Assembly (NCBI RefSeq): GCF_000948975.2
Contig: NZ_CP059736.1
Span: 868,001 to 932,000, forward strand
Direction of reading: 5' to 3'
Source of the DNA: Thalassomonas actiniarum
GTDB taxonomy: Bacteria > Pseudomonadota > Gammaproteobacteria > Enterobacterales > Alteromonadaceae
Length of the DNA stretch: 64,000 nucleotides
Position numbers and translations under genes: made by a program. The notes under the pieces were generated by a model. That model was given only the letters and a program-made list of their open reading frames with translations. It was not told where the DNA came from and made no database searches. Below, piece after piece: positions 13,750 through 64,000 of the stretch. How positions within the stretch are numbered: the stretch's first letter is position 1; every line of letters begins with the position of its first letter.

Positions 13750-15066
13750 ATGAATGGATATCCCATGGACGCGGTATATAAAAAAATAAAAAATGAAATA
13801 GCGTATGCCCATAGTAAAACTGGTTTTTTTAGAAAGCATCTTGAGCAGGCGGGTCTAACCCTCAACGACATTTCAGAGCCTAGTGATTTACTCAAAATCC
13901 CACCTACTGTTAAGCGGAATTACCGCCAAGGTTTTCCAGCCGCTGTTATTGCTTCCGGCTACAATCTAAAAAGTCCCTATGTAATGCGTTTTCAAAGCTC
14001 GGGAACGGAAGGGGATAGATTGGTTAGTGTTGTTTTGTCTTATGATCTTGCAAGGCGTCAGGCCAGTTGTATCTCTGTCAACCCAACATTTTCATCACTG
14101 TGGCGGCCAGGTTTGAAATTGCGTACCTGCAGATTCGCTGCTCCAAACTGTTCAGATGTAGAGTGTGCTAATCCAAACAGTACCATGGAAAGTCGAATGT
14201 TAGCCGATGGTACATTAGTGTTGCCTGTCTACCATGATCTGTTAACTACACCAGAACATATGGTTAATAGAGCTTTGGATGAAATAGAAGAGTACGATCC
14301 ACATTTGCTATTTGTTGACCCTACCCATTTTGCATTTTTAATCAGAGCGATGAAAAAGGCAGGACGAGTTCCTCATAAAACGGATGGCTTTTGTATTATT
14401 TCTGCTTACACACTCTGTACACAAGTAGCCCGCCGTCAAATTAAGGAATGTTTTGGTGACAAGGTTGCATTTGCAGATATGCTTGGTATGTCAGAACTCG
14501 GATACATAGGTTTTGAATGTCTCGCCGGGCAGCAGCACATTAATGTTAAAGACTACCACATTGAGTTTATTCGAGATGGTCGCCCAGCCAAGCCTGGTGA
14601 GTTGGCGGAGATGCTTATTACGACTATCGGTGATCGCTTGTCTCCCCATATTCGCTATGCCACTGGCGATCTTTATCGCTTAAGTGCTGAAAAATGTTCA
14701 TGTGGCGACCCTGCGCCAGTGGTACGCCATGAAGGTCGAGTTAAAAATGTGCTCTGGCTACATGACGGTACGTTAGTGACACCGAAAGAGTTGGACGAAC
14801 TGATCGGGCCTGCAGCCTGGATAGACATGTATCAAATGAATCAAACAGATGATGATCAGTTTACTTTTCAATACATGGGTAATGAAGCCTGGACTCAACA
14901 GCTTGAAAATGAGCTGCTCGAAAAGCTAAAAGAAACTTTAAAAACAAAAAATATCAATTGCTCCACTACCAACTATTTACCCGCCGATCGGGGAGGTAAA
15001 TTTATGTCTTGTGTTTCAAGTGTTGCAATGAGAGCAGATAAAAGGAGTTTAATATCATGGGTTTAG
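13750..15066 (+). CDS. PaaK-like adenylate-forming enzyme (phenylacetate-CoA ligase family)
   Basis: A 438-residue ANL-superfamily protein when started at the ATG at 13750; a second ATG at 13765 is also possible, and an upstream TTG (13699) is unlikely. The phosphate-binding loop is QSSGTEGD (Gly-rich, about residues 82-89). GMSELGYIGFEC matches the mid-protein adenylate-binding region, and IRYATGDLYRL (about 300) is the conserved hinge aspartate motif. The Cys-rich CSCGD at about 317 is typical of PaaK relatives. It should activate a carboxylate as an acyl-AMP, with CoA, a carrier protein or a sulfur donor as acceptor. Its stop overlaps the cysteine desulfurase start by 10 bp, so the two are translationally coupled and probably act together. 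Substrate unknown. Confidence 0.75.
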   Translation: MNGYPMDAVYKKIKNEIAYAHSKTGFFRKHLEQAGLTLNDISEPSDLLKIPPTVKRNYRQGFPAAVIASGYNLKSPYVMRFQSSGTEGDRLVSVVLSYDLARRQASCISVNPTFSSLWRPGLKLRTCRFAAPNCSDVECANPNSTMESRMLADGTLVLPVYHDLLTTPEHMVNRALDEIEEYDPHLLFVDPTHFAFLIRAMKKAGRVPHKTDGFCIISAYTLCTQVARRQIKECFGDKVAFADMLGMSELGYIGFECLAGQQHINVKDYHIEFIRDGRPAKPGELAEMLITTIGDRLSPHIRYATGDLYRLSAEKCSCGDPAPVVRHEGRVKNVLWLHDGTLVTPKELDELIGPAAWIDMYQMNQTDDDQFTFQYMGNEAWTQQLENELLEKLKETLKTKNINCSTTNYLPADRGGKFMSCVSSVAMRADKRSLISWV

Positions 15067-16271
15067 AAAATTGCCAAGCAGATTTCCCGGTTCTGGAACG
15101 CCTTATAGATGGGCAACGCGTCACTTACTTAGATAGTGCAGCGACATCTCTAAAGCCTCGCTCCGTTATCGACGCAATGTCAAATTTTTATTCGCAAAAT
15201 GGCGTCAATATTCATAGAGGTAAATATTATCTTTCAGAAGAAGCCTCTGACTCCTACGAGCGGGTAAGATACTCTATAGCTCAATATTTAGGAGCATACG
15301 GAAATGAAATTGTTTTCACTAAAGGAACTACTGAATCATTAAACCTGGTGGCCTATGGCCTGGGTTTGCAGCAAGATGATATCGTTGTCGGTTTCCTTGA
15401 TTCTCATCATGCTCAACTACTGCCATGGCGAAGAGCTGCAAACTTAAAATTGGTCAACCTTAATAGTGACGGGGGGATTGACCTTGATCATTACCATGAA
15501 CTACTTAAGTTAAAGCCCAAAGTGGTTGTGCTCACGCATTGCTCAAATGTGAGTGGAAATATTGCCCCCATTGAAGAGATGACCATTGCGGCAAAAGAGG
15601 CCTGTGATGCAATTGTGGTGGTGGATGCCGCTCAATCAATGCCTCACCCGCATCTGCGCATTGATGTTTCTAAAATAGACGTTGATTTTGTTGCTTTTTC
15701 TGCCCACAAAATGTTAGGTCCAACGGGCGTGGGCTGTTTGTATGGCAAAAGCTCCCGGCTCAATGAATTACGCCCGCTGATGCTTGGTGGAGGCATGGTG
15801 GACTGGGTCGATACGGAAGGTTCCCAAGAGCGAAAAATCCCGCACCGCTTCGAAGCTGGAACACCGGCAATTGCCTCTACTTTGGGCTTCGGTGAGGCCA
15901 TCAATTACCTTAAGCGGTTCGGTGAAAAAAAGTCGCTGGAGCATACCGAAGAATTGACTGAGGCCATTATTAAAGGGGCCATGGAGAGAGATTACATTCA
16001 GTTATTAGGTACAAAAAGTACAGAAAACCGCTGTGCTATAGGCAGCCTTAGAATTAAAAATTGTGATGACCTGTCTGATATCGCCAGATCTTTGAGTGAT
16101 TCTTACGGCATTATGTGTCGAACTGGGCATATGTGTGCTCAGCCTATTGTGGATGAGCAGATGGGCGACGAGGTATTGCGAATCTCTGCTTACATTTACA
16201 ACACTACCGAAGAGATCGAAAGATTCTATCAGTCACTGGATGAATTGGTTTCTTTTCTCGGACTCGTATAA
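15057..16271 (+). CDS. SufS/CsdA-like cysteine desulfurase (class V PLP enzyme)
   Basis: A 404-residue group II cysteine desulfurase. It contains GTTESLN near residue 97 and VVDAAQSMPH, with the PLP-pairing Asp. The Schiff-base lysine is in FSAHKMLGPTGVGCLYGK (K218), and the active-site cysteine is in CRTGHMCAQP (C360), matching the SufS RTGHHCAxP motif, so it should be able to take sulfur from cysteine as a persulfide. No SufE, SufBCD or IscU gene is near, which argues against a housekeeping Fe-S role. A clear AAAGGAG site lies before its ATG, inside the upstream gene. Coupled to the PaaK-like ligase, it may supply sulfur to an activated carboxylate or to the peptide. A C-S lyase or aminotransferase-like activity cannot be excluded. 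Confidence 0.87.
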   Translation: MGLENCQADFPVLERLIDGQRVTYLDSAATSLKPRSVIDAMSNFYSQNGVNIHRGKYYLSEEASDSYERVRYSIAQYLGAYGNEIVFTKGTTESLNLVAYGLGLQQDDIVVGFLDSHHAQLLPWRRAANLKLVNLNSDGGIDLDHYHELLKLKPKVVVLTHCSNVSGNIAPIEEMTIAAKEACDAIVVVDAAQSMPHPHLRIDVSKIDVDFVAFSAHKMLGPTGVGCLYGKSSRLNELRPLMLGGGMVDWVDTEGSQERKIPHRFEAGTPAIASTLGFGEAINYLKRFGEKKSLEHTEELTEAIIKGAMERDYIQLLGTKSTENRCAIGSLRIKNCDDLSDIARSLSDSYGIMCRTGHMCAQPIVDEQMGDEVLRISAYIYNTTEEIERFYQSLDELVSFLGLV

Positions 16272-16353: not shown

Positions 16354-18807
16354 ATGCTATTGCGCTCCCACCCTATTTTATCTCGCTTTTTAATTTGGGT
16401 TGTTACTCCCTTCATATTGTTACTGGCTTACAGTTATAGTTTTCTGTTGCAAAGCCTGCCCCAGAAAGAGGGAACTGTGCGCTTGCAGGGGCTGGACTCT
16501 GCAGTAAAGGTCATTCGTGATGAAAATGCGATTCCTCACATACTTGCTGATAACGATCTTGATGCATTTTTCGCACTAGGCTACGTGCACGCGCAAGATC
16601 GATTATGGCAAATGAATTTTTCGATCCGCTTAGCTACAGGGCGCTTAAGCGAAATCTTAGGCAGGGATTCCCTTAACAGCGATAAGTTTATGAGAACGCT
16701 TGGTATCTATCGGGCGTCGGAGCAAGCCCTGCTGTCCTTGGATGAGCGTTCTCGTCGTACGTTAGAGGCTTATGCGAAAGGGATTAATGCTTGGATTAAA
16801 GAAGGGCACACACTCCCCTTAGAGTTTCAAATTTTAGATGCCGAACCGGAGTTATGGGAACCTGTTAATTCAATTGCACTGATAAAGCTGATGGCTTACA
16901 ACTTGGGGGGGCTTAATTCTGGTCGTGAATTAACCCTCAGTGCATTAATAAAGGAGCTTGGCGTAGACAATGCAAACGAACTTATGCCAAATGTTAATGC
17001 TCAAAGCTTTCCCGATACCGAGACGGCAGGGTTAATAGATAAAGATATAATACTAGGTTTATTGGCTCAGAATGAGCAGGTGCAACCACAATTTAATGTC
17101 GGCGGAGAAGGCTTGGGCAGCAATGCTTGGGTGGTTTCTGGAGAGTATACACAAAGTGGTCTACCTCTGTTAGCCAGTGATCCTCACTTGGGGGTAGAGA
17201 TCCCGGCAGTGTGGTATCTTGCTGAAATCCAGGGAGATGAGCTACATGTGACTGGTGCAACCTACCCTGGAGCACCTATTGTTCTCATGGGGCAAAATGA
17301 ATCGATTGCCTGGGGTACTACCAATATGCTTGCAGATGCTCAGGATCTGTATGTGGTGCGTACCAATGATTTAAATGAGGATCAGTACAAGGTAGATGGC
17401 CAGTGGCTAGATATGGAAGTCGAAGAGGAGCTTATTCATGTTAAATCAGACTTTCCTCAGTTTTTAACCGACCCCATTCCCCCAGTAAAATGGCAAGTTA
17501 GAAGCACACGTCATGGTCCGTTGATCAGTGACGCAATAGGTCGTTCTGAGCGGCCATTAGCATTACGCTGGAGCGCATTAGACGAGCAAGACAAGACCTT
17601 TCAAAGTTTCCTTGATATCAACTATGCAGATGACTGGACCAGTTTTAAGTCTGCATTTGAAGGTTACGCTGCACCAGCCCTAAATTTCATTTACGCCGAC
17701 AATAAAGGCGATATAGGTTTATTTGCTGCGGGTAACATTCCTATTCGCCATCACAGTAACGGCAGGATCCCTGTACCTGGTTGGAACTCAAAGTATGAAT
17801 GGGATGGCTATATCCCAACGGATTCCTTACCCCACATATTAAATCCAGAACAAGGATATATCGCTAATGCAAATAATAAAAACCACACTGCAGATTACCC
17901 TTATTTAATTTCAAATATTTGGGCTGCACCTTTTCGAGTTGAGCGAATTAACAAGACCATTGAAAGTTACATTGATAAAGGTAAAAAAATAACAGTACAG
18001 GACTTTATAGACTTACAAGGGGATGAGGGCAGTCTGCAAGTGCAACAGTTATTGCCATTCTTACTAAGTTTAGCGCCTCAAAGCGCCCGGCAGGAAAGTG
18101 TTATTAGCAAACTTAAAGGTTGGGATGGTGTGTTGTCTGGTGATAGTGAAGAAGCTGTTGTTTATCAGGTGTGGTTGCGACATTTTAACACCTTATTGCT
18201 TAGTGATGATATGAGAGGCAGCGCATTACATGAAGAGAGAGCAAATGGCTTGCAAGGATTTTTGTCAGTCCTAAAGCCTACATTTATCAATAATGCTGTT
18301 AATCAAAGTGACTCTTTACAATTTGATTGGTGCGATCAGATCACCACTGAGAAACCGGAAACCTGTGAAGAGTTGGCCTTGATTGCGTTGAATGGGGCAA
18401 TTGATGAAATTGACCGTCAAATTGGTGGCAATAAAAAGTGGGGGGACGTCCATGAAACTTATTATCCTCATCTGGTGTTTACTAACTCGCAGCTCTTGAG
18501 TTCCATATTTGACCGGGGCATTGAGGGTAGCGGTGATCGATACACGGTAAATAGTGGCAACTGGCGGTATACAGAAGATGGTGAATATCGAACAGGCTCC
18601 TCGGCTAACTATCGCCAGATTGTTGATTTAAGTGACCGGACAAAGGGCGGCTTTATTAACAATACCGGGCAAAGCGGTAATGTCATAAGTGGACACTATG
18701 ATGACAATATCAAACCTTTCAAACAATTAAAGCTATGGCCTATGCAGCTAAACACAGTGCATGGTGCTGAATCAGCATCAACACTGACACTAGAGCCTAT
18801 CAAATAG
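16354..18807 (+). CDS. Membrane-anchored penicillin acylase-family Ntn hydrolase
   Basis: An 817-residue penicillin amidase family precursor. An N-terminal hydrophobic helix (about 12-34) directs it to the periplasm, probably as an anchored protein. The alpha-subunit region includes VRDENAIPHI-like and FALGYVHAQDRLWQMNF motifs. The autocatalytic cleavage site and nucleophile are GLGSNAW, making S256 the new N-terminal serine of the beta chain. PLLASDPHLG, GATYPGAP and INYADDW-type segments follow as expected. Such enzymes cleave an amide next to an acyl chain: beta-lactam side chains, acyl-homoserine lactones, or, as in PvdQ, the fatty acid of a peptide precursor. Its place between tailoring genes and a PvdE-like exporter, in a cluster that starts with a fatty acyl-AMP ligase, favours peptide deacylation. 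Confidence 0.88.
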   Translation: MLLRSHPILSRFLIWVVTPFILLLAYSYSFLLQSLPQKEGTVRLQGLDSAVKVIRDENAIPHILADNDLDAFFALGYVHAQDRLWQMNFSIRLATGRLSEILGRDSLNSDKFMRTLGIYRASEQALLSLDERSRRTLEAYAKGINAWIKEGHTLPLEFQILDAEPELWEPVNSIALIKLMAYNLGGLNSGRELTLSALIKELGVDNANELMPNVNAQSFPDTETAGLIDKDIILGLLAQNEQVQPQFNVGGEGLGSNAWVVSGEYTQSGLPLLASDPHLGVEIPAVWYLAEIQGDELHVTGATYPGAPIVLMGQNESIAWGTTNMLADAQDLYVVRTNDLNEDQYKVDGQWLDMEVEEELIHVKSDFPQFLTDPIPPVKWQVRSTRHGPLISDAIGRSERPLALRWSALDEQDKTFQSFLDINYADDWTSFKSAFEGYAAPALNFIYADNKGDIGLFAAGNIPIRHHSNGRIPVPGWNSKYEWDGYIPTDSLPHILNPEQGYIANANNKNHTADYPYLISNIWAAPFRVERINKTIESYIDKGKKITVQDFIDLQGDEGSLQVQQLLPFLLSLAPQSARQESVISKLKGWDGVLSGDSEEAVVYQVWLRHFNTLLLSDDMRGSALHEERANGLQGFLSVLKPTFINNAVNQSDSLQFDWCDQITTEKPETCEELALIALNGAIDEIDRQIGGNKKWGDVHETYYPHLVFTNSQLLSSIFDRGIEGSGDRYTVNSGNWRYTEDGEYRTGSSANYRQIVDLSDRTKGGFINNTGQSGNVISGHYDDNIKPFKQLKLWPMQLNTVHGAESASTLTLEPIK

Positions 18808-18833
18808 CAGCGTGAGCAAAAGGATCATTGAAA

Positions 18834-20633
18834 ATGAAAGAAAATAATGAAAACTCACCTACAGGATTGTTCAAGCTTTTACCTGCGACTGCGCCTAATA
18901 AAGTATTTTTAGCTATCTTGCTAGGCTCTTTGGCGGGGATAGCGTATGCCATTGTTGTGCCTTTAGTTTTACTGTCCTTGCAGCCTTCGTTAAGTCGACT
19001 TATGCAGCCTGAATTTGAATCATCTTATTGGTTACTGGGAACATTTGAAATATCGTCCCCTACTCAGGCGTTTTTCTACTTTTCCATTGTGCTGTTAATT
19101 CTGCTATGTAGGGTGATATCCGAAACTATGGTTGCACAAACCTCGATAGATGCAACGGTAGGATTAAGAAAGAAGCTGTATAAAAGAATTTCCCAGCTAC
19201 CTATTCAAAGTTTAGAGCAGATTGGCCAGTCACGTATATTGACCGCATTGAATAACGATATTGGACGAGTGACTGAAGGTGCGGCGGTGCTGCCAAATAT
19301 TTTGGTTGCTGCAAGTACATTGGTCGGCATGCTTGCCTTCCTAATGTATTTAAAGCTCGAAGTCTTCTTATTCATCATAGGCATTATTGTATTTGGTGTA
19401 GTGACTTATCGTATCCCACTGTTTTTTGGTCAGAAACATTTAGTCAAAGCCCGTAATAGTTTCGATGGCATACAGGAAGGAATTAGGGGGCTCATATACG
19501 GCGCCAAAGAGTTAAAGTTAAATCAACAAAAAAAGCATGCATATTTGACCGAAAACCTTCATGCATATGAAGAAAACTTCGCAGCGGCTCAAAAGCGCGG
19601 TCGGTTTTTCTTAAGTGTTGGTTTGAATTACGGGACGCTGATTAGCTTCTTTGCTATTGGGATAGTGACCTACATAATGGCCAATTATTATACCTTGTCT
19701 CAGGCGAACTTGATGGGGGTGGTAATGGTACTGCTTTACATTACCGGCCCTATGTCAGCGCTCATCAATTTAATGAACGGCGTCATAATGGCCCGTGTTG
19801 CTGCAAAAAAATTAGATCATTTGCTCAATGAGATGCCTATAGAAGCTTCGGGAGATATCGCTGACCCCGTTGATTGTCAGCAGTTGCGAGTTGAAGGCTT
19901 AGAGTATATTTACCCTGCTTTAAACAGTGCAGACTCAGCATTTCACCTGGGTCCTGTTGATTTGACACTTAAGCGTGGCGAAGTCACTTTTTTAGTTGGG
20001 GGAAATGGTTCCGGAAAAACGACATTATCAAAATTGCTATCGCTTCACTATATTCCCGGTAAAGGCCAGATTAGCTTTGATGATCAAGCTATCAATGATA
20101 ATAATCGCGAAGCCTGCCGTCAAAGTGTGTCGGCAATTTACTCTGACTTTTACCTTTTTACTAAGTTACATGGTTTGTCGTCAGAGAATATTGACCAACG
20201 TGCTATGCAATACATAAAAGATCTGGGGCTAGAAGGAAAGGTGACGATTAAGAACGGTCAATTTTCTAGCACAGACTTGTCTGATGGACAAAAAAAACGT
20301 TTAGCCTTACTGGTTACTTACCTTGAAGATCGTTCAATCTATGTCTTTGACGAATGGGCTGCGGATCAGGATCCCGGCTTTAAAGAAATTTTCTATCATC
20401 GGATTTTGCCCGAGTTAAAACTGCTTAACAAGATGGTCATAGTGATCACTCATGATGATCGATATTTTTATCTTGCCGACAAGTTAGTGAAAATGGAAAA
20501 CGGCAAGGTTGCAGAAGAAATAAATAAAGACAACTTAGCAATAGCGGCATTGAAGCCCGAGCTGCAAATGAAGGGTTTTGAAAACGTTAGCGATGAGAAG
20601 GAAAGGTTGGAGGCAGATAATGCTGGCAGATAA
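18834..20633 (+). CDS. PvdE/SyrD-like cyclic peptide ABC exporter
   Basis: A 599-residue fused permease-ATPase, started at the ATG at 18834, which has AAAAGGA about 10 bp upstream; an in-frame TTG at 18828 is less likely. Residues about 20-320 hold six predicted transmembrane helices. The C-terminal ATPase has Walker A GGNGSGKTT (about 389), signature LSDGQKKR (about 482-489), Walker B with FDEW (D506, E507) and a switch histidine in VITHDD. The architecture and the wording around the Walker B (FDEWAADQDP) match the cyclic peptide transporter family of PvdE and SyrD, which export NRPS products or their acylated precursors across the inner membrane. It works naturally with the acylase encoded 26 bp upstream. 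The sulfotransferase start overlaps its 3' end. Confidence 0.93.
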   Translation: MKENNENSPTGLFKLLPATAPNKVFLAILLGSLAGIAYAIVVPLVLLSLQPSLSRLMQPEFESSYWLLGTFEISSPTQAFFYFSIVLLILLCRVISETMVAQTSIDATVGLRKKLYKRISQLPIQSLEQIGQSRILTALNNDIGRVTEGAAVLPNILVAASTLVGMLAFLMYLKLEVFLFIIGIIVFGVVTYRIPLFFGQKHLVKARNSFDGIQEGIRGLIYGAKELKLNQQKKHAYLTENLHAYEENFAAAQKRGRFFLSVGLNYGTLISFFAIGIVTYIMANYYTLSQANLMGVVMVLLYITGPMSALINLMNGVIMARVAAKKLDHLLNEMPIEASGDIADPVDCQQLRVEGLEYIYPALNSADSAFHLGPVDLTLKRGEVTFLVGGNGSGKTTLSKLLSLHYIPGKGQISFDDQAINDNNREACRQSVSAIYSDFYLFTKLHGLSSENIDQRAMQYIKDLGLEGKVTIKNGQFSSTDLSDGQKKRLALLVTYLEDRSIYVFDEWAADQDPGFKEIFYHRILPELKLLNKMVIVITHDDRYFYLADKLVKMENGKVAEEINKDNLAIAALKPELQMKGFENVSDEKERLEADNAGR

Positions 20634-21600
20634 AAAAAGTTTACCAAGTGATAGAAGCTTGAAAAAGTTTTTCAGGGCATTTGAGCTTTCTACAGAATAT
20701 AGAGAGCGTAAATATTTCGGCAAGTCGCTATTTCATAAGCCATCACAGTTGATACTGGGGTTTATAGAATATCAGTTTCTTAGTTATTATTTTGCTAGGG
20801 TTCCCGGTTGGCGTTTGTTTTTACGACGCCTTTACTCAAAAGATCGCATTGCGCCAAATTATGTGGTTATTGGCCCCATGAAAAATGGTTCAAGTGATCT
20901 GGTAACACACCTGCAAATGCATCCAAATGTCATGCACCCCTTGGCTAAGGAAATTGCTAGCAGGAATGTTGAGCAAGTAAAATTGCATTATCCAACAATA
21001 AAGGAAAAACAGCGTCTAGAGGAACAAAGCCAACATCCTGTCAGATGTGGCTACCTCAAGCCTGAATTAAACAACATGGGGTTGATGGATCATCTTTATG
21101 AATTAAATCCTCAATCTAAAATCATCATCACATTAAGAGATCCGGTCTCCAGAGCCTATACACATTGGAAATGGGAGGTTTTTCTAGGAGGCGAGTTCTT
21201 AAGGAGTGATCCTCATTTTGAGACTTTTGAGCAGTATGCTGAGCGTGCGCTTGATTTGTTTCCTAGCCTGCCGATGAAAACAGCCTGTGGGTTTCCTCCG
21301 TTGCAAACCGGAATTTACTACCAGGCAGTGGAGAAATGGATAAACCGTTTTGGCAGGGAAAATGTCTTAATTTTAGATTCGGCTGAGTACTTTTTAAACA
21401 GGCAACCGACCCTTGAAAGGGTTCAGGAATTCCTGGAACTGCCCATTGTTGATATTCCTGAATATGGTGATAAAGCCAATGAAAACCCGATAAAGCTTCC
21501 GCCGGCAAACCAAAAAACAAAATCAATGCTTGCTGAGTTTTACAAACCCTACAACCAAAAACTATTTGACTTATTAGGTCAAGAGTTTGATTGGCAATAA
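20620..21600 (+). CDS. PAPS-dependent sulfotransferase
   Basis: A 326-residue protein when started at the ATG at 20620, which has a good GGTTGGAGG site and overlaps the exporter gene by 14 bp. The 5'-phosphosulfate loop is IGPMKNGSSDL (about 84-94), and the 3'-phosphate site is LRDPVSRAYTHWKWE (R173, S177), both as in the Sulfotransfer_1 / heparan sulfate sulfotransferase-like family. It would move sulfate from PAPS to a hydroxyl or amine. With three candidate hydroxylases in the same cluster, a beta-hydroxyl of the peptide, or a Ser/Thr side chain, is the most likely acceptor, but that is inference. There is no signal peptide, so it acts in the cytoplasm before export. Confidence 0.87.
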   Translation: MLADKKSLPSDRSLKKFFRAFELSTEYRERKYFGKSLFHKPSQLILGFIEYQFLSYYFARVPGWRLFLRRLYSKDRIAPNYVVIGPMKNGSSDLVTHLQMHPNVMHPLAKEIASRNVEQVKLHYPTIKEKQRLEEQSQHPVRCGYLKPELNNMGLMDHLYELNPQSKIIITLRDPVSRAYTHWKWEVFLGGEFLRSDPHFETFEQYAERALDLFPSLPMKTACGFPPLQTGIYYQAVEKWINRFGRENVLILDSAEYFLNRQPTLERVQEFLELPIVDIPEYGDKANENPIKLPPANQKTKSMLAEFYKPYNQKLFDLLGQEFDWQ

Positions 21601-21655: not shown

Positions 21656-23254
21656 ATGCAGAAAGAGTTACTATACCTAAAACCAGACGTTTATTTTGAG
21701 CCATTATTAAACCACTGGTACGCATGGCCCTATCTTATCCCCCCGGTTACTTTTGCACGACACACAGTGAATACCCATCGTCGGATCATGCAATCTTTCG
21801 TTAAGAACTATAAATTGCACATCATAGCGTCAAAAGAGTCAGTATTAACCGGTGGTGAGTTCTTAAATTGTACAGAAGAGCAGGTTGATGATATCAAGGC
21901 GCTGATAGCCGAGCTGGATGAAAGGTGCGGTGATCTCATTGAGTTATCAGATGCTGTTAAGCATTTAGATGATCTGCTATATGAGCACACCAGCGGTGAA
22001 AGTATTGAATATCTTTATGCCAAAGTTCCAGACCCTTTAAAAGGGTGTGTAGAACTGTTTTTGGATATGGAGCATCGTCCTTCTTATCGCATTATTGAGC
22101 CTTTGATGTATAGAAGCTCCTATTATAAGCCTTCGCTGCAAAGCCTGTCCTTTGGCTTGCTTTCTAAAGTCGGTGAACGTCCATTTGTCTTAAGCACCCC
22201 ACGCTTGCCTGATGAAAATCATTTACAAATCAATGCAGAGTTTAATGCAGCCATTGTTGATGCCATTTTCCAGGCCAGAGAAAAACCTTTATCTTCTGAG
22301 CAGGTAGATGAGTTGTTTAAAGATTATCAGTCAATTGGTGGCGTGTCTTATCGCGAGTTGTTTACCAGCGAAAAGCCAGCAATCAACCACGTCCCTGTAG
22401 AAGAAGGCGTAAGATTAAACTATACGGGACACGCAGGCTTTCTGATCGAAACCAAAGATGTTTCCATATTGGTTGATCCCATCATTGCTTCTAGAGAGAC
22501 CAATGATGACGACACTATGATCGGCTACAGCGAGTTGCCAGAAACCATAGACTATATTCTCCTGACGCATACCCATATGGATCATGCCAACATAGAGACA
22601 CTGCTGCAGTTACGCTATAAAACGAAAAAAGTCGTTGTGCCGAAAAATAATGGTGGCAGCCTTGCTGACCCGTCGTTACGACTGATGTTACAGCAGTTGA
22701 ACTTTGATGTGATGGAGGTGGACGACTTAGAAGAGATTGTTATCCCTGATGGCCGCATCGTTAGTTTACCTTTCCTTGGCGAACACGGAGACTTAAATAT
22801 TCGCTCAAAAGCTGCCTGGTACATTGAAGCTTATGGTAAGAAGTGCTTTTTTGGTGCTGACTCCTCCAACCCAGACCGTAACTTGTATGAGCAACTTGGC
22901 AAAATATTCACTGACCTGGATGTGTTGGCTATCGGTATGGAGTGTGTCGGTGCGCCTTATACTTGGGCTTACGGCGCCTTGCATACCAAAAAAGTCCCCA
23001 AAGCGATTAAGAACTCAAGGCGTTTAGATGGCTCAGACTGCGAGCAGGCACTCCCCATGGTCAAGGCGTTTAATGCCAAGCAAGTCTGTGTTTACGCCAT
23101 AGGGTTAGAAACCTGTTTTAAATACTTTAATGGTCTTGAGCACGAAGAAGATTCAAAACAGGTGCAAGAGTCGACTAAATTCCTTGAAGCTTGTAAAGAA
23201 ATCGATGTTCCGGCAGAAATGTTATTTTGCAAAAAAAGCATCCACCTCAAGTAA
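21656..23254 (+). CDS. CmlA-like diiron beta-hydroxylase (metallo-beta-lactamase fold)
   Basis: A 532-residue protein with a long N-terminal domain (about 1-240) and a metallo-beta-lactamase-fold C-terminal half. The metal motif is THTHMDH: H305, H307, D309 and H310. The other candidate ligands are E376 in LGEHGDL, D402 in FGADSS and H443 in YGALHTKK. A glutamate ligand in the GEH position and a large N-terminal domain are the features that separate CmlA, the dinuclear iron beta-hydroxylase of chloramphenicol biosynthesis, from zinc hydrolases. The total length and the positions of the HxHxDH residues match what I recall for CmlA. CmlA hydroxylates the beta carbon of a PCP-bound amino acid, so this enzyme probably acts on an aminoacyl-PCP of the NRPSs immediately downstream. 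Confidence 0.8.
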   Translation: MQKELLYLKPDVYFEPLLNHWYAWPYLIPPVTFARHTVNTHRRIMQSFVKNYKLHIIASKESVLTGGEFLNCTEEQVDDIKALIAELDERCGDLIELSDAVKHLDDLLYEHTSGESIEYLYAKVPDPLKGCVELFLDMEHRPSYRIIEPLMYRSSYYKPSLQSLSFGLLSKVGERPFVLSTPRLPDENHLQINAEFNAAIVDAIFQAREKPLSSEQVDELFKDYQSIGGVSYRELFTSEKPAINHVPVEEGVRLNYTGHAGFLIETKDVSILVDPIIASRETNDDDTMIGYSELPETIDYILLTHTHMDHANIETLLQLRYKTKKVVVPKNNGGSLADPSLRLMLQQLNFDVMEVDDLEEIVIPDGRIVSLPFLGEHGDLNIRSKAAWYIEAYGKKCFFGADSSNPDRNLYEQLGKIFTDLDVLAIGMECVGAPYTWAYGALHTKKVPKAIKNSRRLDGSDCEQALPMVKAFNAKQVCVYAIGLETCFKYFNGLEHEEDSKQVQESTKFLEACKEIDVPAEMLFCKKSIHLK

Positions 23255-56049: not shown

Positions 56050-56078
56050 GCGGCTATGCAAAGTTGTTAGGGAAAGCT

Positions 56079-57059
56079 ATGAACAATAATAATATGAAAA
56101 CAGCACACAAAAGAATGGGTGACAACGAGTATAGCCCGTATTTAATTGAACTTGATTGCGACAGCACAAGCGCCTTGAACTATTTATCTGAGCACAAAAA
56201 CGAAATAGAAGAAATGCTGAACACTGCTGGTGCAGTGTTGGTTCGAGGTAGTCGATTTGATGATCACAAGGCCGTTCAAGGGGGAGCGGATTTATTTTTT
56301 ACTGAAGCATTGAAATACAACGGTGAACATTATCCGGTGGCCAAAAATTCTTCCGTACAAAGACCGGTCGATTATGCAAATGCAGAGTTCCTGTTATGGC
56401 ATAACGAAAATACTTTTAATCATTCGTTTCCTGCCAGAGCTATATTTGCTTGCGAATTAAAAGCAACTACTGGTGGCCAGACGCCAATAGTTGATAGCAG
56501 AGAAGTTCTGAACAATTTAAATAGTGAAGTGAGAGATAGCTTCATCAACAAACAGGTGATGTATGTTCGAAAATATGAATCACATGACTTTTTAGGTGTT
56601 GGTTGGAAGACTATTTTTAATACTGAGGATAAACAGCAAGTCGAACAGTTGTGTAGGGAAAAACACATGGACTTTGAATGGGTGGGTGCTGACACCTTGA
56701 TTACCCGTTCCATTAGACCTGCGGTTATGAACCATCCTGTCAGCGGGCAGTTGAGTTGGATCAACCAGGTATTACACTGGCATTTTCATTGTCTCAGTCC
56801 TGCAACTCAAGAAGATGTCAAGGCCATGTTTGAGGAGGAATTATTATATCCGCGTAATTGCTATTTTGGTGATGGTAGCAAAATTCCTGATGATTACATT
56901 GATCATATCCATGACGTATATAAGCAATGCCAAATCCAGTTTGATTGGAAAAATGGTGATTTACTGCTTGTTGATAACATTCTCAAGGCACATGCAAGAA
57001 CCCCTTATGAAGGGGAAAGAAAGATACTTGTATCTTTCGGAAATCGAATTACTTACTAG
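56079..57059 (+). CDS. SyrP/TauD-like Fe(II)/2-oxoglutarate beta-hydroxylase 2
   Basis: A 326-residue oxygenase when started at the ATG at 56079, which has AGGGAAA upstream; an in-frame TTG at 56064 is unlikely and ATG 56094 is possible. Iron ligands are H108-x-E110 in LWHNENTFN and H305 in KAHARTPYEGERK. It is a paralogue of the 43254 gene but clearly diverged, for example in the distal-His neighbourhood, so the two likely act at different residues. It lies between NRPS-3 (Asn module) and NRPS-4, with gaps of 29 and 18 bp and no hairpins, so it is tightly coupled to them. Likely beta-hydroxylation of an Asn/Asp-type residue, by analogy with SyrP and AsnO. Confidence 0.86.
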   Translation: MNNNNMKTAHKRMGDNEYSPYLIELDCDSTSALNYLSEHKNEIEEMLNTAGAVLVRGSRFDDHKAVQGGADLFFTEALKYNGEHYPVAKNSSVQRPVDYANAEFLLWHNENTFNHSFPARAIFACELKATTGGQTPIVDSREVLNNLNSEVRDSFINKQVMYVRKYESHDFLGVGWKTIFNTEDKQQVEQLCREKHMDFEWVGADTLITRSIRPAVMNHPVSGQLSWINQVLHWHFHCLSPATQEDVKAMFEEELLYPRNCYFGDGSKIPDDYIDHIHDVYKQCQIQFDWKNGDLLLVDNILKAHARTPYEGERKILVSFGNRITY

Positions 57060-57077: not shown

Positions 57078-60000
57078 ATGTCTATTAATATCGCGGATAT
57101 TATCAAGCGAGCAGCAGCACAGGGCGTGCTGCTTCATGTAGATGATAGTGAGCTTAGATTCAAACTGAAAGTGAAGGCATTTCCTGCCGAGATTAAGCAG
57201 GAAATAGTAGCTAATAAAAAAGCCATCATTGAGTTCTTGAATAAAATTCAGGTTGGCCGTACGGCGAATAAAACGGCAGCAGCCCCTATTGTTAAAGCAC
57301 AAAGAAATCAAGGCGTGTTGCCAACTTCCTATGCACAACGGCGATTACTACTGATTGATAAGTTGCAAGGGGGATCTTCGGAATACAACTCTCCAAGGAT
57401 ATTTGAAGTGTCTGGAAAGTTGGATCTAACTTTACTCAATAAAGTGTTCACTACCATTATTGAGAGACATGAAATCACTCGTACCATATACACTGAACTT
57501 GATGGTGAAATGTACCAGCGAATTCGGCCAATGAGTGATATCAACTTTCAGCTAAGAGAGCAAGATTTAACTCACTTGGACAAGTCAGTGCAGCAACAAG
57601 AAGTCATGCGTTTAATAGCGGATGATTTCAAAACGCCGTTCAATTTGTCGCAAGATTTAATGCTGAGAGTGAGTTACTTCAAGACGGATGAAGCCTTGGG
57701 CGTCTTTCTGTTGAATATGCATCATATTGCCACTGACGGCTGGTCGATGGAGCTGCTTACCCGGGAGTTTTTAACTCTTTATGATGCATATTATAAAGGC
57801 GAAGAGAATCCGTTACCGGTTCTTGAAATTCAGTATGCCGATTATGCAGCATGGCAAAGCAGTGGAGCAGAGGCTGAAAAAATAGCAACGCAGTTGCAGT
57901 ATTGGGAAAAGCAATTAGACGCTATTCCTTCAGTACATAGTTTAACTTTAGATAAAGCTCGTCCGGCACTGAAGCAAAATGACGGGGCTTTTGTTCGTGG
58001 TGTATTGCCAAAGGAAGTCTCCAAAGGTTTAATGGATATTGCCAAAGGCCATAATTTAACGCCGTTCATGCTGTGTCATGCGGCGTTGTCATTGCTATTG
58101 TCTCGTCATAGCAATAGTGACGATATTGTGATTGGTACGCCTGTGGCGAACCGGCTGCAAAAAAAGTTAGAGCCATTAATAGGCTTTTTTGTCAATACGC
58201 TGGTGCTTAGGGCGGACACAGCCCATGGCATGCTATCCGATTACTTTAAACACATCAGACAGGTGAATTTAGAGGCGCAAGCAAACCAGGATGTGCCGTT
58301 TGAGCAATTGGTAGAAAGGTTAAAGGTGCCAAGAAGTAGCAATCACAGTCCGTTATTCCAAATTATGATGACAACGAATACGGATTACGGCATTAATCAT
58401 GATACGACAAAACAACTGGCTGGTTTAGATATTAGGCCTTATCGCTCAGAGACAATACAAGCGAAGTTTGACCTAGATATCGCGTTGAATTTGCACGATG
58501 AGGGCATAGACATCAACTGGACTTATGATGTCAGCCTGTTCAGTGAGCAAACGATAACCAGGTTGAATGATCATTTATGTCGTTTACTGACAGGGCTCAG
58601 TGAAGTCACCGAGGCAAGTATTGCGCCACAGTGCTTGCCGATGTTGTCGGAAGCAGAAACGCATCACCTGGTCAGTGAGCTTAATGAGACGGCGATGGAC
58701 TATCCGAAGAATAAGTGTATTCATGAATTGTTTGAGCAACAAGTCAAAGAGACTCCGGACAAGGTGGCGGTGGTCTTTGAAGATACACAGCTAACTTACA
58801 AAGCACTCAATGAGCAAGCGAACCAACTGGCGCATTACCTGGTTGAAGAGCAGGGTGTTAAGCCGGACACTTTAGTGGGCTTGTGTGTTGAGCGTTCACT
58901 GGAGATGGTGGTTGGGATACTGGGTATATTAAAAGCCGGCGGGGCGTATGTGCCGCTGGACCCAAATTACCCGCAAGCGCGCTTAGATTACATGATAAAA
59001 GATGCGTCGTTAACAACGATAGTGAGTCACGGGCAAGCGCTCCCGGCATTAACGGCGTTTACCGGTCATGTCATTAACCTGGATACTCAGGATGCTTATC
59101 GCCATTACAGTAGTGAAAATATCATTCAGTCAGCGCTTGGACTTAGCTCTTCACATTTGATGTATGTGATTTATACGTCAGGATCAACGGGTCAACCAAA
59201 AGGGGTAATGGTTGAGCATTGTTCTGTGAGTAATTTAATTTTCTCACAAAAAGTATCTTATGGATTCGACGACACTGTTAATGAGACTGGTATCTTATTG
59301 GCAAACTATGCATTCGATGCGTCTGTTGAACAACTATTTTTAATGTTATTGACAGGTGCTAAGGTATTAATCCCTAAAAAAGATGATTTATTGTCTTCTG
59401 AAAAGTTATGTGCTCACATAACTGGTCATAAAGTAACACATATTGATAGTACACCCTCGCATTTATTAAGCTTTATTGCCGAGCTGAATTTTGAACATAT
59501 AAAAAGAGTGGTTTCTGGAGGTGAGTCTTTTATTCCTCAATTATGTGAACTTAGTGATACAGAAGTTTTTAACGTCTATGGTCCCACAGAAGCTTGTGTA
59601 ACAAGTCATATCTCAAAGTCATATAATTCAATAGGTAAAGGTATAGGCAATAGCCATACTTTGATTCTGTCTAATCAACAGCAGTTGATCGCCAAAGGTG
59701 GTGTAGGAGAGCTGTACATCGGTGGTGACGGCCTTGCTCGAGGCTATTTAAATCGCCCGGAATTAACGGCAGAGCGCTTTATTGAAAACCCATTTTATGA
59801 TGACAGTGATCCAAATAGCGCTGAGCGCTTATATCGCACAGGGGATTTGGTGCGTTATTTGCCTGATGGCAATGTAGCCTTCATCGGGCGTGTCGATGAC
59901 CAAGTTAAAATACGTGGTTTTAGAATAGAGCTCGCAGAGGTGGAATCACAGCTATCAGCACAGGCCGGGGTTGATTCAGCGTTAGTGATGGCCAAGGAGC

Positions 60001-63000
60001 TTGCCGGCGGTCTGCAGCTTGTTGGCTACATCAAGGCTAATCATGAACTCGACAAAGACGCACAAGTGACTTTGGCGGCTCAAGTAGAAGCAGGGTTATC
60101 TACTCAGTTGCCCGAGTACATGGTGCCAAGTATCTTGATGGTGGTGAATGAGTGGCCATTGACCCCCAATGGCAAGGTGGACAGAAAAGCCTTACCTGCA
60201 CCTGATGGCAGTGCCTTGCAAGGTGAGTATGTAGCGCCTCAGACGGATACGGAAAAAGCCTTGGTGGAGATTTTCTCAAAGCTGCTGACGATAGCGGCGG
60301 ATAAAATCAGCACTACGGCGAATTTCTTTGAGCTGGGCGGGCACTCGTTATTGAGCATCCGTTTGATATCGAGCATTCGTACATGTTTTGAGGTTGAACT
60401 GCCGGTTCAGGCGGTGTTTGAGGCCAAGAGCTTGTCAGCGTTATCGCTGGCCATTGAATCTCACCGTGGTGGCATGCTGCGGGCACCGTTAGAGGTGATA
60501 GCACGTACCAAAGACAGTTATGCCGTTTCATTCGCCCAACAACGCTTGTGGTTTATTGATCAATTACAAGGCGGGTCTGCGCAATACAACATGCCGATGG
60601 CGTTTGATGTGCAGGGCAACTTGGATGTGTCATTAATTGATGATGTCTTTACCCAGATCCTGGCACGTCATGAAGTGTTGAGAACCGTGTATGTTGAAGC
60701 AGACGGCGAGGCGAAGCAGCGTATCCGGCCAATGTCGGCGCTTGACTTTGCCATTGGCGTTGAGGATATGCGCCACCTCACCGGTGAGATGCAGGCACAG
60801 GCAGTCCAAGAGAGAGTCGAAGCGGATATCACCACAGCATTTGACCTGTCAAGCGATGTGATGCTGCGGGTGCGTTACCTGCGAACCGCGGATGAGGCTG
60901 GGGTGCTGGTCTTTAACATGCACCATATTGCCTCGGACGGCTGGTCGATGGAAGTGCTCACCAAGGAATTCTTTGCGCTGTATGATGCTTTCAGTCATGG
61001 CTTGGCCAACCCATTACCCGCGTTAGCAATACAGTATGCGGACTATGCCCATTGGCAGCACACACAGTTAGCAGGCGAAGTGCTGGACAGACAGCTGGAG
61101 TACTGGGAAAAGCAGCTGGAAGAGGCCCCGGCGGTACACAGTTTGCCGTTGAGCAAGCCAAGATCAGAGGTGAAGCAGTATGCTGGTGCGGTAATAAAAG
61201 GTCACCTGCCTGCCAAGGTAAGCGAACAACTGCAGGCATTGGCCAGGCAGCATCAATTGACGCCATTTATGTTATTACATGCTGCCTTGTCTCTGGTGTT
61301 ATCCAGACACAGTAATAGCGCAGATATTGTGATTGGTACGCCGGTGGCGAACAGGCTGCAAGAAGAGCTGGCACCATTAATAGGCTTTTTTGTCAATACG
61401 CTGGTACTTAGAACTGACACCGCACATGCCACGCTATCCGATTACTTTAAACACATCAGGCAAGTGCACTTAGCGGCGCAAGCAAACCAGGATGTGCCGT
61501 TTGAGCAATTGGTTGATAGATTAAAGGTGCCAAGAAGCAGCAGTCACAGCCCGTTATTCCAAATCATGATGACGACGAATACGGATTATGGGGTGAGTAA
61601 CGATAATACAAGCAGCCAGCTGGCTGACTTAGCTATCACGCCTTATCAATCAGAGACAGTACAGGCGAAGTTTGATTTAGATATCTCTTTGAATTTGCAC
61701 CATGAGGGCATAGATCTCAACTGGACGTATGATGTCAGCCTGTTCAGTGAGCAAGCGATAACCAGGTTGAATGACCACTTATGTCGTTTACTGACAGGGC
61801 TCAGTGAAGTCACCGAGGCAGGTATTGCGCCACAGCACTTGCCGATGCTGTCGGAAGCCGAAACGCATCACCTGGTCAGTGAGCTTAATGAGACGGCGAT
61901 GGACTATCCGCAGGATAAGTGCATTCATGAATTGTTTGAGCAACAAGCCAAAGACAATCCGGACAAGGTGGCGGTGGTCTTTGAAGATACGCAACTGACT
62001 TACAAAGCGCTCAATGAGCAAGCGAACCAACTCGCGCATTACCTGGTTGAGGAGCATGGCATCAAGGCGGACACTTTAGTGGGGGTGTGTGTTGAGCGTT
62101 CACTGGAGATGGTGGTTGGGATACTGGGTATACTAAAAGCCGGCGGGGCGTATGTGCCACTGGACCCAAATTACCCGCGAGCGCGCTTAGATTACATGAT
62201 AGAAGATGCGTCGTTAACAACGATAGTGAGTCACGGGCAAGCGCTCCCGGCATTAACGGCGTTTACCGGTCATATCATTAACCTGGATACTCAGGATGCT
62301 TATCGCCATTACCGTAGTGAAAATATCGCTAAGGCAGCACTTGGGCTTAGCTCATCGCATTTGGCGTATGTGATTTATACATCAGGCTCGACAGGTAAAC
62401 CTAAAGGAGTATTAATACCCCATATAGGCATTGTCAGGTTAGTGGTAGAACAAGGTTTTATGAATTTAAGCCATGATACCTGCATGATGCAATGCGCTAA
62501 TATTGCCTTTGATGCTGCAACGCTTGAATTATGGGGACCTCTTCTTAATGGTGGTAAGTCAATACTTTACTCTGGTGGGCAACTGGTTCCTGAGTTATTA
62601 AACACAGAAATTAAAAAGCATGGGGCTAATACACTTTTTTTAACTACTGGGCTCTTCAGAGAGTGGTCATTAGATATTCCTGATGATTTACCGTTAGAGC
62701 AATTGTTGACTGGAGGAGATGTTTTAGATTTAGAAACGATTAAACGAGTTCAAAATCAATTACCAGGTTTACAGCTGAGCAATGCTTATGGACCAACAGA
62801 AAATACGATGATCTCGACAATCTACAGCTTTAAAGCGTCACATGATGGATTGATACCAATAGGGCAAAAATTAAAAACAGATCATGTTTATATATTAGAC
62901 CAAAAGCAAAGGCTGGTACCTAAAGGTGTTGTGGGAGAGTTATACGTAGGAGGTGACGGTCTTGCTCGAGGCTATTTTAATCGCCCGGAATTAACGGCAG

Positions 63001-64000
63001 AGCGCTTTATTGAAAACCCATTTTATGATGACAGTGATCCAAATAGCGCTGAGCGCTTATATCGCACAGGGGATTTGGTGCGTTATTTGCCTGATGGCAA
63101 TGTAGCCTTCATCGGGCGTGTCGATGACCAAGTTAAAATACGTGGTTTTAGGATCGAATTGGGCGAGGTGGAATCACAGCTATCAACACAGGCCGGGGTT
63201 GATTCAGCGTTAGTGATGGCCAAGGAGCTTGCCGGCGGTCTGCAGCTTGTTGGCTACATCAAGGCTAATCATGAGCTCGACAAAGACGCACAAGTGACTT
63301 TGGCGGCTCAAGTAGAAGCAGGGTTATCTACTCAGTTGCCCGAGTACATGGTGCCAAGTATCTTGATGGTGGTGAATGAGTGGCCATTGACCCCCAATGG
63401 CAAGGTGGACAGAAAAGCCTTACCTGCACCTGATGGCAGTGCCTTGCAAGGTGAGTATGTAGCGCCTCAGACGGATACGGAAAAAGCCTTGGTGGAGATT
63501 TTCTCAAAGCTGCTGACGATAGCGGCGGATAAAATCAGCACTACGGCGAATTTCTTTGAGCTGGGCGGGCATTCGTTATTGAGCATCCGTTTGATATCGA
63601 GCATTCGTACGTATTTTGAGGTTGAACTGCCGGTTCAGGCGGTGTTTGAGGCCAAGAGCTTGTCAGCGTTATCGCTGGCCATTGAATCTCACCGTGGTGG
63701 CATGCTGCGGGCACCGTTAGAGGTGATAGCACGTACCAAAGACAGTTATGCCGTTTCATTCGCCCAACAACGCTTGTGGTTTATTGATCAATTACAAGGC
63801 GGGTCTGCGCAATACAACATGCCGATGGCGTTTGATGTGCAGGGCAACTTGGATGTGTCATTAATTGATGATGTCTTTACCCAGATCCTGGCACGTCATG
63901 AAGTGTTGAGAACCGTGTATGTTGAAGCAGACGGCGAGGCGAAGCAGCGTATCCGGCCGATGTCGGCGCTTGACTTTGCCATTGGCGTTGAGGATATGCG
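57078..64000 (+). CDS. NRPS-4 (partial): dock-[C-A-PCP]-[C-A-PCP]-C...
   Basis: The frame from the ATG at 57078 (AGGGGAA upstream) stays open for 2307 codons to the window edge; no stop is reached, so length and termination are unknown. Domains: TubC-type dock 1-60; C about 80-535 (HHIATDGWS); A1 535-1045; PCP about 1050-1125; C 1145-1590; A2 1610-2120; PCP about 2125-2200; start of a third C from about 2223. Pocket codes: A1 DAEDVGVVTK, with two acidic residues that suggest a cationic substrate (Orn, Lys or Arg); A2 DALFLGAMIK, suggesting a hydrophobic residue. The two modules are nearly identical outside the adenylation cores. No epimerase or thioesterase is seen in this part. It follows oxygenase 2 by 18 bp. 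Confidence 0.93.
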   Translation, partial: MSINIADIIKRAAAQGVLLHVDDSELRFKLKVKAFPAEIKQEIVANKKAIIEFLNKIQVGRTANKTAAAPIVKAQRNQGVLPTSYAQRRLLLIDKLQGGSSEYNSPRIFEVSGKLDLTLLNKVFTTIIERHEITRTIYTELDGEMYQRIRPMSDINFQLREQDLTHLDKSVQQQEVMRLIADDFKTPFNLSQDLMLRVSYFKTDEALGVFLLNMHHIATDGWSMELLTREFLTLYDAYYKGEENPLPVLEIQYADYAAWQSSGAEAEKIATQLQYWEKQLDAIPSVHSLTLDKARPALKQNDGAFVRGVLPKEVSKGLMDIAKGHNLTPFMLCHAALSLLLSRHSNSDDIVIGTPVANRLQKKLEPLIGFFVNTLVLRADTAHGMLSDYFKHIRQVNLEAQANQDVPFEQLVERLKVPRSSNHSPLFQIMMTTNTDYGINHDTTKQLAGLDIRPYRSETIQAKFDLDIALNLHDEGIDINWTYDVSLFSEQTITRLNDHLCRLLTGLSEVTEASIAPQCLPMLSEAETHHLVSELNETAMDYPKNKCIHELFEQQVKETPDKVAVVFEDTQLTYKALNEQANQLAHYLVEEQGVKPDTLVGLCVERSLEMVVGILGILKAGGAYVPLDPNYPQARLDYMIKDASLTTIVSHGQALPALTAFTGHVINLDTQDAYRHYSSENIIQSALGLSSSHLMYVIYTSGSTGQPKGVMVEHCSVSNLIFSQKVSYGFDDTVNETGILLANYAFDASVEQLFLMLLTGAKVLIPKKDDLLSSEKLCAHITGHKVTHIDSTPSHLLSFIAELNFEHIKRVVSGGESFIPQLCELSDTEVFNVYGPTEACVTSHISKSYNSIGKGIGNSHTLILSNQQQLIAKGGVGELYIGGDGLARGYLNRPELTAERFIENPFYDDSDPNSAERLYRTGDLVRYLPDGNVAFIGRVDDQVKIRGFRIELAEVESQLSAQAGVDSALVMAKELAGGLQLVGYIKANHELDKDAQVTLAAQVEAGLSTQLPEYMVPSILMVVNEWPLTPNGKVDRKALPAPDGSALQGEYVAPQTDTEKALVEIFSKLLTIAADKISTTANFFELGGHSLLSIRLISSIRTCFEVELPVQAVFEAKSLSALSLAIESHRGGMLRAPLEVIARTKDSYAVSFAQQRLWFIDQLQGGSAQYNMPMAFDVQGNLDVSLIDDVFTQILARHEVLRTVYVEADGEAKQRIRPMSALDFAIGVEDMRHLTGEMQAQAVQERVEADITTAFDLSSDVMLRVRYLRTADEAGVLVFNMHHIASDGWSMEVLTKEFFALYDAFSHGLANPLPALAIQYADYAHWQHTQLAGEVLDRQLEYWEKQLEEAPAVHSLPLSKPRSEVKQYAGAVIKGHLPAKVSEQLQALARQHQLTPFMLLHAALSLVLSRHSNSADIVIGTPVANRLQEELAPLIGFFVNTLVLRTDTAHATLSDYFKHIRQVHLAAQANQDVPFEQLVDRLKVPRSSSHSPLFQIMMTTNTDYGVSNDNTSSQLADLAITPYQSETVQAKFDLDISLNLHHEGIDLNWTYDVSLFSEQAITRLNDHLCRLLTGLSEVTEAGIAPQHLPMLSEAETHHLVSELNETAMDYPQDKCIHELFEQQAKDNPDKVAVVFEDTQLTYKALNEQANQLAHYLVEEHGIKADTLVGVCVERSLEMVVGILGILKAGGAYVPLDPNYPRARLDYMIEDASLTTIVSHGQALPALTAFTGHIINLDTQDAYRHYRSENIAKAALGLSSSHLAYVIYTSGSTGKPKGVLIPHIGIVRLVVEQGFMNLSHDTCMMQCANIAFDAATLELWGPLLNGGKSILYSGGQLVPELLNTEIKKHGANTLFLTTGLFREWSLDIPDDLPLEQLLTGGDVLDLETIKRVQNQLPGLQLSNAYGPTENTMISTIYSFKASHDGLIPIGQKLKTDHVYILDQKQRLVPKGVVGELYVGGDGLARGYFNRPELTAERFIENPFYDDSDPNSAERLYRTGDLVRYLPDGNVAFIGRVDDQVKIRGFRIELGEVESQLSTQAGVDSALVMAKELAGGLQLVGYIKANHELDKDAQVTLAAQVEAGLSTQLPEYMVPSILMVVNEWPLTPNGKVDRKALPAPDGSALQGEYVAPQTDTEKALVEIFSKLLTIAADKISTTANFFELGGHSLLSIRLISSIRTYFEVELPVQAVFEAKSLSALSLAIESHRGGMLRAPLEVIARTKDSYAVSFAQQRLWFIDQLQGGSAQYNMPMAFDVQGNLDVSLIDDVFTQILARHEVLRTVYVEADGEAKQRIRPMSALDFAIGVEDM
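58990..59119 (+). repeat. Left flank of the A-core swap, copy 1
   Basis: This stretch of NRPS-4 A1 is nearly identical to 62194-62324 in A2 (shared DASLTTIVSHGQALPAL). The wider C and A N-terminal region from about 58100 is also very similar to the second module, with an offset of 3204 bp. Similarity falls off right after GAAAATATC, just before core motif A3. Confidence 0.75.
59733..60772 (+). repeat. Tandem module repeat in NRPS-4, copy 1
   Basis: From core motif A7/A8 (GLARGYLNRPELTAERF) through the A C-terminus, PCP and start of the next C domain, this DNA is nearly identical to 62961-64000 with an offset of 3228 bp. The match probably continues beyond the window edge. Confidence 0.85.
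62194..62324 (+). repeat. Left flank of the A-core swap, copy 2
   Basis: Partner of 58990-59119 in the second adenylation domain of NRPS-4; only a few base differences are visible, and the two diverge sharply after GAAAATATC. Confidence 0.75.
62961..64000 (+). repeat. Tandem module repeat in NRPS-4, copy 2
   Basis: Partner of 59733-60772, cut by the window edge. The PCP and linker part is also shared with NRPS-1 around 36060-36420. Confidence 0.85.

Follow-up and report, generated by a model that had tools for sequence, protein, structure and literature searches.

A complete twelve-module nonribosomal peptide cluster in Thalassomonas actiniarum with a predicted prodrug cap and a ligase/desulfurase pair that probably sulfurates an aspartate-like building block

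Several described systems resemble, each in part, the gene cluster that is the subject of this work. Pyoverdine biosynthesis combines an acylated precursor with an ABC exporter and a periplasmic N-terminal nucleophile (Ntn) acylase (PvdE/PvdQ), and in the SyrP-type systems for beta-hydroxy-Asp peptides a TauD enzyme adjoins Asp-type modules. The sulfur transfer enzymes MnmA and ThiI pair adenylation with a desulfurase partner and carry a candidate cysteine on the adenylating enzyme. Corramycin from Corallococcus coralloides starts from a FAAL although its product lacks a lipid, periplasmic deacylation has been proposed for it, and it contains a D-His with a beta-hydroxyl group that comes from a module with an epimerization domain (PMC10099666). 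Here we describe a nonribosomal peptide synthetase (NRPS) cluster in a 64,000-nt stretch of T. actiniarum DNA (NZ_CP059736.1, positions 868,001-932,000, forward strand; hereafter the window) that shares, or is predicted to share, these traits. Unlike it, corramycin is the product of an NRPS-polyketide synthase (PKS) hybrid with an FkbH-like second module and other residues, and the main text of the corramycin paper names ComB (a putative hydrolase) and ComC and does not contain the word 'desulfurase' (PMC10099666). The T. actiniarum genome consists of a chromosome of 6,556,942 bases and the chromid pTact of 937,696 bases (PMC9860883, Table 2). According to the passages of that paper drawn on here, chromids hold the bulk of secondary-metabolism genes and the gene clusters of its three species resemble known ones little or not at all; its main text does not use the term NRPS, and these passages do not describe the cluster's product (PMC9860883).

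We lean, with slightly better than even confidence, towards a complete cluster whose product is a secreted nonribosomal peptide of 12 residues that carries a prodrug cap: a fatty acyl group would probably protect the peptide during synthesis and be removed once it has been exported. The cluster begins at ~13.75 kb, and all of its genes between 13.7 kb and 64000 lie on the + strand, as a preliminary description of this DNA had stated. Its core is formed by NRPS-1 (23308..42993; FAAL and carrier, Gly, D-His-like, Ser, Asn and a residue denoted Z), NRPS-2 (44345..52528; D-Z, Thr), NRPS-3 (52525..56049; Asn) and NRPS-4 (first part 57078..64000; in full a cationic residue, two hydrophobic residues, Asn and a thioesterase, TE). 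Whole-genome family searches gave, with C, A, T and E for condensation, adenylation, carrier and epimerization domains, the order FAAL-T, C-A-T, C-A-T-E and three C-A-T modules; C-A-T-E and C-A-T; C-A-T; and four C-A-T modules with the TE, which places E domains in modules 2 and 6 and makes 12 modules plus a TE overall. The 937,696-bp contig ends within NRPS-4, the frame resumes at base 1 of the same contig and runs into a carrier-TE end (to C2:1220), and similarity to module 8 persists across the junction. We therefore take the replicon to be circular, NRPS-4 to have 4612 aa and the line to be complete with 12 residues; the further modules that had been placed outside the window are thus found.

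This line has the makeup of a type I modular NRPS, with ordered C-A-T modules, intact motifs and a release domain: HHxxxDG is kept in 14 of 14 C and E domains, the carrier serine motif in all 12 carriers before the origin, and the TE carries GHSFG. The C domains that follow the two E domains (C3 and C7) diverge from the others (≤28% identity), as expected for acceptors of D-residues. A FAAL-type AMP ligase and a carrier precede the first C domain; the best PDB matches of the NRPS-1 start are FAALs, and this start has no DNA match in the plasmid collection. The A domains of modules 4, 8 and 12 are 95-99% identical and those of modules 10 and 11 99% identical, such that both sets look like recent duplicates.

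Related clusters were sought with the PaaK-like ligase encoded at the cluster's start. Of 395 genomes of the family, 20 have matches, the source genome included. Besides the cluster described here, seven places with 38-85% identity lie in six genomes, and 13 more have 23-26%. A scan with two ligase peptide patterns, one genome per species across 84,980 species, gave 22 loci. A close group comprises P. amylolytica, P. luteoviolacea S2607, Marinibactrum halimedae, Microbulbifer taiwanensis and a genome designated G082, and the order PaaK-SufS-acylase-ABC-sulfotransferase-CmlA-FAAL is identical in all six clusters (T. actiniarum and these five). C, E, T and TE domains in the relatives were labelled with small hidden Markov models built from the T. 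actiniarum cluster's own domains, and their module residues, except His, are provisional assignments. With Φ for hydrophobic, T. actiniarum reads Gly, D-His, Ser, Asn, Z, D-Z, Thr, Asn, cationic, Φ, Φ, Asn, and G082 reads Gly, D-His, Gly, Z, D-Z, Val, Z, Φ, Ser, with no match at the line's end to the TE model, which was built from one sequence. The remaining lines are cut: Gly, D-His, Gly, Z, D-Ser, Val in M. taiwanensis; Gly, DAEHEGVIS, Gly, Z and other residues in P. luteoviolacea and M. halimedae; and Gly, D-His, Ser in P. amylolytica. A link to the copper peptides of Microbulbifer was considered and rejected, as the title of the paper on these calls them ribosomally synthesized and post-translationally modified peptides.

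Conservation of this kind bears on whether the cluster still has a product. Just upstream (12700-13525) are two short frames, one for a luciferase-like monooxygenase of MupA type that is truncated and one, with no family match, that resembles a ketosynthase start; they are apparently debris of a lost PKS/NRPS cluster and could suggest that the present cluster is likewise silent or decaying. We regard this as very improbable, since the 12 modules, the TE and the tailoring genes are open, motifs are intact where checked and the identical gene order is kept in other genera.

Substrate codes were taken from a MAFFT alignment to a GrsA fragment, and the residue names attached to them, His excepted, are our assumption. 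The extracted signatures are DILQLGMV- for Gly (with a gap at residue 331), DVWHFSLID for Ser, DATKVGEVG for Asn (modules 4, 8 and 12), DFWNIGMVQ for Thr, DAEDVGVVT for the cationic residue, DALFLGAMI for the hydrophobic residues (modules 10 and 11) and DLIKIANIS for Z (modules 5 and 6), so the Ser, Thr, Asn and Gly calls of the preliminary description stand. Module 2 (A2 core, 29905..30981) has DSVLIAEVW, one letter off DSALIAEVW(K), which the part of a report drawn on here gives as a His code that accepts the beta-hydroxylated residue (PMC12283262). The M. taiwanensis cluster has exactly DSALIAEVW.

The identity of Z was approached through an unusual SDLGN stretch borne by its A domains. Among 127 A domains (from the window, the related loci and other T. 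actiniarum clusters), DLG[NH] occurs in 12, namely eight Z domains and four coded DLTKxGH[VI]G, which we take to be an Asp code. A tree of the specificity region only (trees are midpoint-rooted, with FastTree local supports) joins exactly those 12 domains (support 0.98). When Z domains are set aside, the first three matches of A5 and the first four of A6 are the Asp-coded domains. Searches with A5 by tblastn of the plasmids and in the PDB returned generic A domains and no hint of a substrate. Some observations tell against an Asp assignment: a tree of whole A domains does not group Z with Asp (node 0.36, 98 tips), a conflict that subdomain exchange might explain, and positions 322 and 331 of Z (N and S) are unlike the Asp codes seen. 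We nonetheless take Z, from its sequence relationships, to be Asp or a near analogue.

Three hydroxylases could act on these residues. For TauD1 (43254..44243, TauD family), the gene order points to Z as the target: in all five readable clusters the last module of NRPS-1 is a Z module, and next comes TauD1 or its homologue (61-73% identical in the four relatives), adjacent in three clusters and separated by one FAD-type gene in two. This gene of ~548 aa, read as a flavin adenine dinucleotide (FAD) monooxygenase from its GAGPAG start, lies between NRPS-1 and TauD1 in P. luteoviolacea (L059/L060) and M. halimedae (L057/L058), the two clusters whose residue 2 is coded by DAEHEGVIS and is not His-like. 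TauD2 (56064..57059, TauD family) probably serves Asn or the cationic residue of module 9, as in 100 kb of G082 a TauD2 query matches the TauD1 place only and the G082 line lacks both codes. The CmlA-like diiron beta-hydroxylase (21656..23254; CmlA_N, 2.7e-82) is retained in both clusters in which residue 2 is not His-like; this speaks against an action on His only, and its target may thus be Z as well.

A set of this kind brings siderophores to mind, as ornicorrugatin-type siderophores chelate iron through beta-hydroxy-His and beta-hydroxy-Asp, and His and Asp-type modules with TauD enzymes supply the usual iron ligands. Here A2 is His-like, both Z modules are Asp-like and TauD enzymes are encoded, and one beta-hydroxy-His with two beta-hydroxy-Asp could chelate iron. 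Yet no Fur box with ≤3 mismatches was matched within the window, and no TonB receptor was found among the scanned cluster proteins and most of the larger frames in the following 20 kb; no receptor was sought among small frames or in the rest of the genome. The sole TonB receptor seen lies ~27 kb upstream, beyond other genes, and the genes downstream of the TE encode a MacB permease, an ABC ATPase, an NtrC-type regulator and a kinase. Homologues of some of these accompany three of the five related clusters (those of G082, P. luteoviolacea and M. taiwanensis), the others being cut or not covered. Lacking a Fur box in the window and a TonB receptor among the scanned proteins, the cluster is thus better read as making a secreted bioactive peptide, and we judge a siderophore improbable. 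Sigma-54 control from promoter sites was also considered and rejected (6 sites found against 12.9 expected).

The case for a removable cap comes from the genes that precede NRPS-1. The acylase (16354..18807) matches the Pfam penicillin amidases and has an N-terminal hydrophobic segment, from which a location outside the cytoplasm is predicted, and a putative nucleophile Ser256 that aligns with the first residue of the β chains in solved relatives. It is followed by a cyclic-peptide-type ABC exporter (18828..20633; TIGR01194, 382 bits against a cut-off of 286), a gene additional to those listed in the preliminary description, and by a sulfotransferase (~20593..21600, by family match; frame open from TTG 20578). 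An acylase with a predicted extracytosolic location and an exporter are thus kept together with the FAAL, as a prodrug mechanism would require. The acyl chain might instead be retained to give a mature sulfated, hydroxylated lipopeptide, with the acylase serving in resistance or recycling. For this speak the matches to the FAAL and sulfotransferase families and an acylase score far under the PvdQ equivalog cut-off (67 bits against 950), which makes it no orthologue of PvdQ. Set against this is the presence of the acylase and exporter alongside the FAAL, in the same order, in six of six clusters, and we find the lipopeptide rather unlikely. A point against the removable cap is that the acylase has D-succinylase as its nearest solved relative, with PvdQ far off, so that its substrate is putative. 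The hydroxylated, possibly sulfated, N-acylated product proposed earlier is supported in part; the enzymes listed for it (FAAL, CmlA-like and two SyrP-like TauD hydroxylases, sulfotransferase, PaaK/SufS and acylase) are all present by family or fold matches. Compared with pyoverdine, the acylase is only distantly PvdQ-like, and the codes include no chromophore-type modules.

The first two genes encode a PaaK-like adenylate-forming ligase and a SufS-like cysteine desulfurase. The ligase (13750..15066) has a frame open from TTG 13699 with in-frame ATGs at 13750 and 13765, and similarity to homologues begins near 13765. It is PaaK-like by sequence, core motifs and fold (4rvn as top match, TM score 0.72, and 2y27; AlphaFold model with a predicted local distance difference test, pLDDT, of 87.9), and falls below the NCBIfam equivalog cut-offs for phenylacetate-CoA ligase (65.5 against 646.3 bits and 77.7 against 700). 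Its NCSDVEC stretch falls within a region (profile positions 90-164) left unaligned to the three best PaaK-like structures; this stretch and the ATP loop are the model's only segments with pLDDT under 50. The desulfurase (15057..16271) overlaps the ligase gene by 10 bp and keeps Lys218 and Cys360, presumably the pyridoxal phosphate lysine and the persulfide cysteine; it scores below the SufS subfamily cut-off (410 against 475 bits), and PvdN, another pyoverdine protein, was rejected as its identity (38 bits against 650).

To follow this pair we assembled 27 loci: the 22 from the pattern scan, three plasmid-collection records (of four with a ligase, three were read), G082 and T. viridans (G095), with the T. 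actiniarum cluster itself uncounted. Both genes occur in all 27, within 115 bp of each other in 26 and with a TauD gene between them in one. SufS residues H117, D190, Q193, H217, K218, C360 and R375 are invariant throughout, H358 is not, and NCSDVEC is present in 27 of 27 ligases; since 22 of these loci were found with patterns overlapping the motif ([FY]AAPNCSD and VECANPNS), which weakens the point, its conservation is independent of the search in five loci only. A-domain or FAAL matches accompany 21 of the 22 pattern-scan loci, and for the last one lie ~12 kb from the pair. None of five places checked among the 13 more distant PaaK-like ones has a SufS match within ~1.5 kb, and both cysteines are missing in the four readable distant proteins (L015 left out).

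An Asp-coded module, TauD, PaaK and SufS stand in this order on a Klebsiella pneumoniae plasmid, on a Vibrio coralliilyticus plasmid and in Nonomuraea gerenzanensis. The two plasmids add a serine acetyltransferase gene (cysE; cysteine supply), and on the Vibrio plasmid a cysteinyl-tRNA ligase gene lies nearby. From the pair and its cysE neighbours we infer sulfur incorporation: the linked enzymes probably sulfurate an aspartate-like building block, and the simplest reading of the sequences is a transfer of cysteine sulfur to the Asp carboxylate. More speculatively, and at clearly less than even confidence, TauD, the Cys-loop ligase and the dedicated desulfurase may form a portable cassette that converts carrier-bound Asp to a beta-hydroxy-beta-thiocarboxylate or a derived ring via side-chain adenylation and persulfide transfer. 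The SyrP-type systems differ in that the T. actiniarum cluster adds the pair, CmlA and the sulfotransferase and has no iron-uptake gene found in it, and the likeness to MnmA and ThiI is an analogy between non-homologous enzymes, the fold here being that of PaaK and the substrate presumably a carboxylate, not tRNA.

The cassette fits some loci poorly. TauD lies within the flanks first examined in 12 of 25 loci (15 with wider flanks), Asp-coded modules are not seen beside every pair, and the more distant clade frequently shows Gly or DAKNISAVN codes, not Asp, in the modules seen closest to it. An Asp-coded DLGN domain occurs in another T. actiniarum cluster as well, whereas PaaK is matched just once in the genome, so that neither the motif nor an Asp-coded module alone implies the pair. 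It is conceivable, though we hold it doubtful, that the pair makes a free building block or acts elsewhere on the peptide, as stand-alone A proteins with other codes sit beside it in Thalassolituus and Corallococcus and the loci do not all have any one A code in common; the rows of Asp-coded module, TauD, PaaK and SufS in Klebsiella, Vibrio and Nonomuraea argue for carrier-bound Asp. DAKNISAVN was rejected as the pair's substrate code, as a second T. actiniarum cluster has DAKNISAIN in three modules in this genome with one PaaK match. A literature search found no paper on a PaaK/SufS pair with an NRPS, a weak absence given that most subscription journals lay outside it.

Taken as a pathway, FAAL would join a fatty acid to Gly1, His2 would be turned to its D form, and both Z residues would be aspartate, hydroxylated by TauD1; CmlA would hydroxylate Z or residue 2, and TauD2 would modify Asn or residue 9. 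The PaaK-like enzyme would adenylate a carboxylate, most simply the Z side chain, and its SufS partner would hand on cysteine sulfur, perhaps via the NCSDVEC cysteines, to give a thiocarboxylate or derived group, and the sulfotransferase would modify or activate a hydroxyl. The ABC protein would then carry the capped, inactive peptide to the periplasm, where the acylase would strip off its acyl chain, and the free peptide would leave the cell through the MacB-type system encoded downstream of the TE.

Other features were observed around these loci. Upstream in the window are a 1644-aa protein (6132-11066) that combines three family-3 solute-binding domains and an NMT1-like match with a terminal histidine kinase part, and an adjoining eukaryotic-type carbonic anhydrase (11211-11948). 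Just after the cluster, L003:8626-19416 holds an integrase, an MksE-type condensin gene with neighbours and a WYL protein (presumably Wadjet-like), and a 2TM-SAVED effector of CBASS type, likely a defence island. Another large T. actiniarum NRPS region (G000:C2:541001-590000, L070-L072) has the three DAKNISAIN codes and several Val-type codes. The Klebsiella (pC696_1, L063) and Vibrio (pOCN014, L064) plasmids carry similar NRPS clusters with TauD-PaaK-SufS-cysE, whose modules we take to be two Cys-, one Ala- and one Asp-coded. In G095:C2 (~341063-343190) and G025:C12 (~77653-79690), each DIWQSTADD A domain gives two matches that share a frame but are separated by 350-380 aa, as would be seen if another domain had been inserted.

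These clusters outline an orphan peptide family of marine bacteria with a common head (Gly-X-Gly/Ser-..-Z) and variable tails. The cassette, if real, would be a new route of sulfur into peptides, spread over Gammaproteobacteria and actinobacteria with copies on Klebsiella and Vibrio plasmids, and would here be combined with a removable fatty-acid cap; the pair, with no TauD in the examined flank, occurs also in myxobacteria. NCSDVEC with an adjacent SufS provides a sequence handle for what may be a new assembly-line sulfur chemistry.

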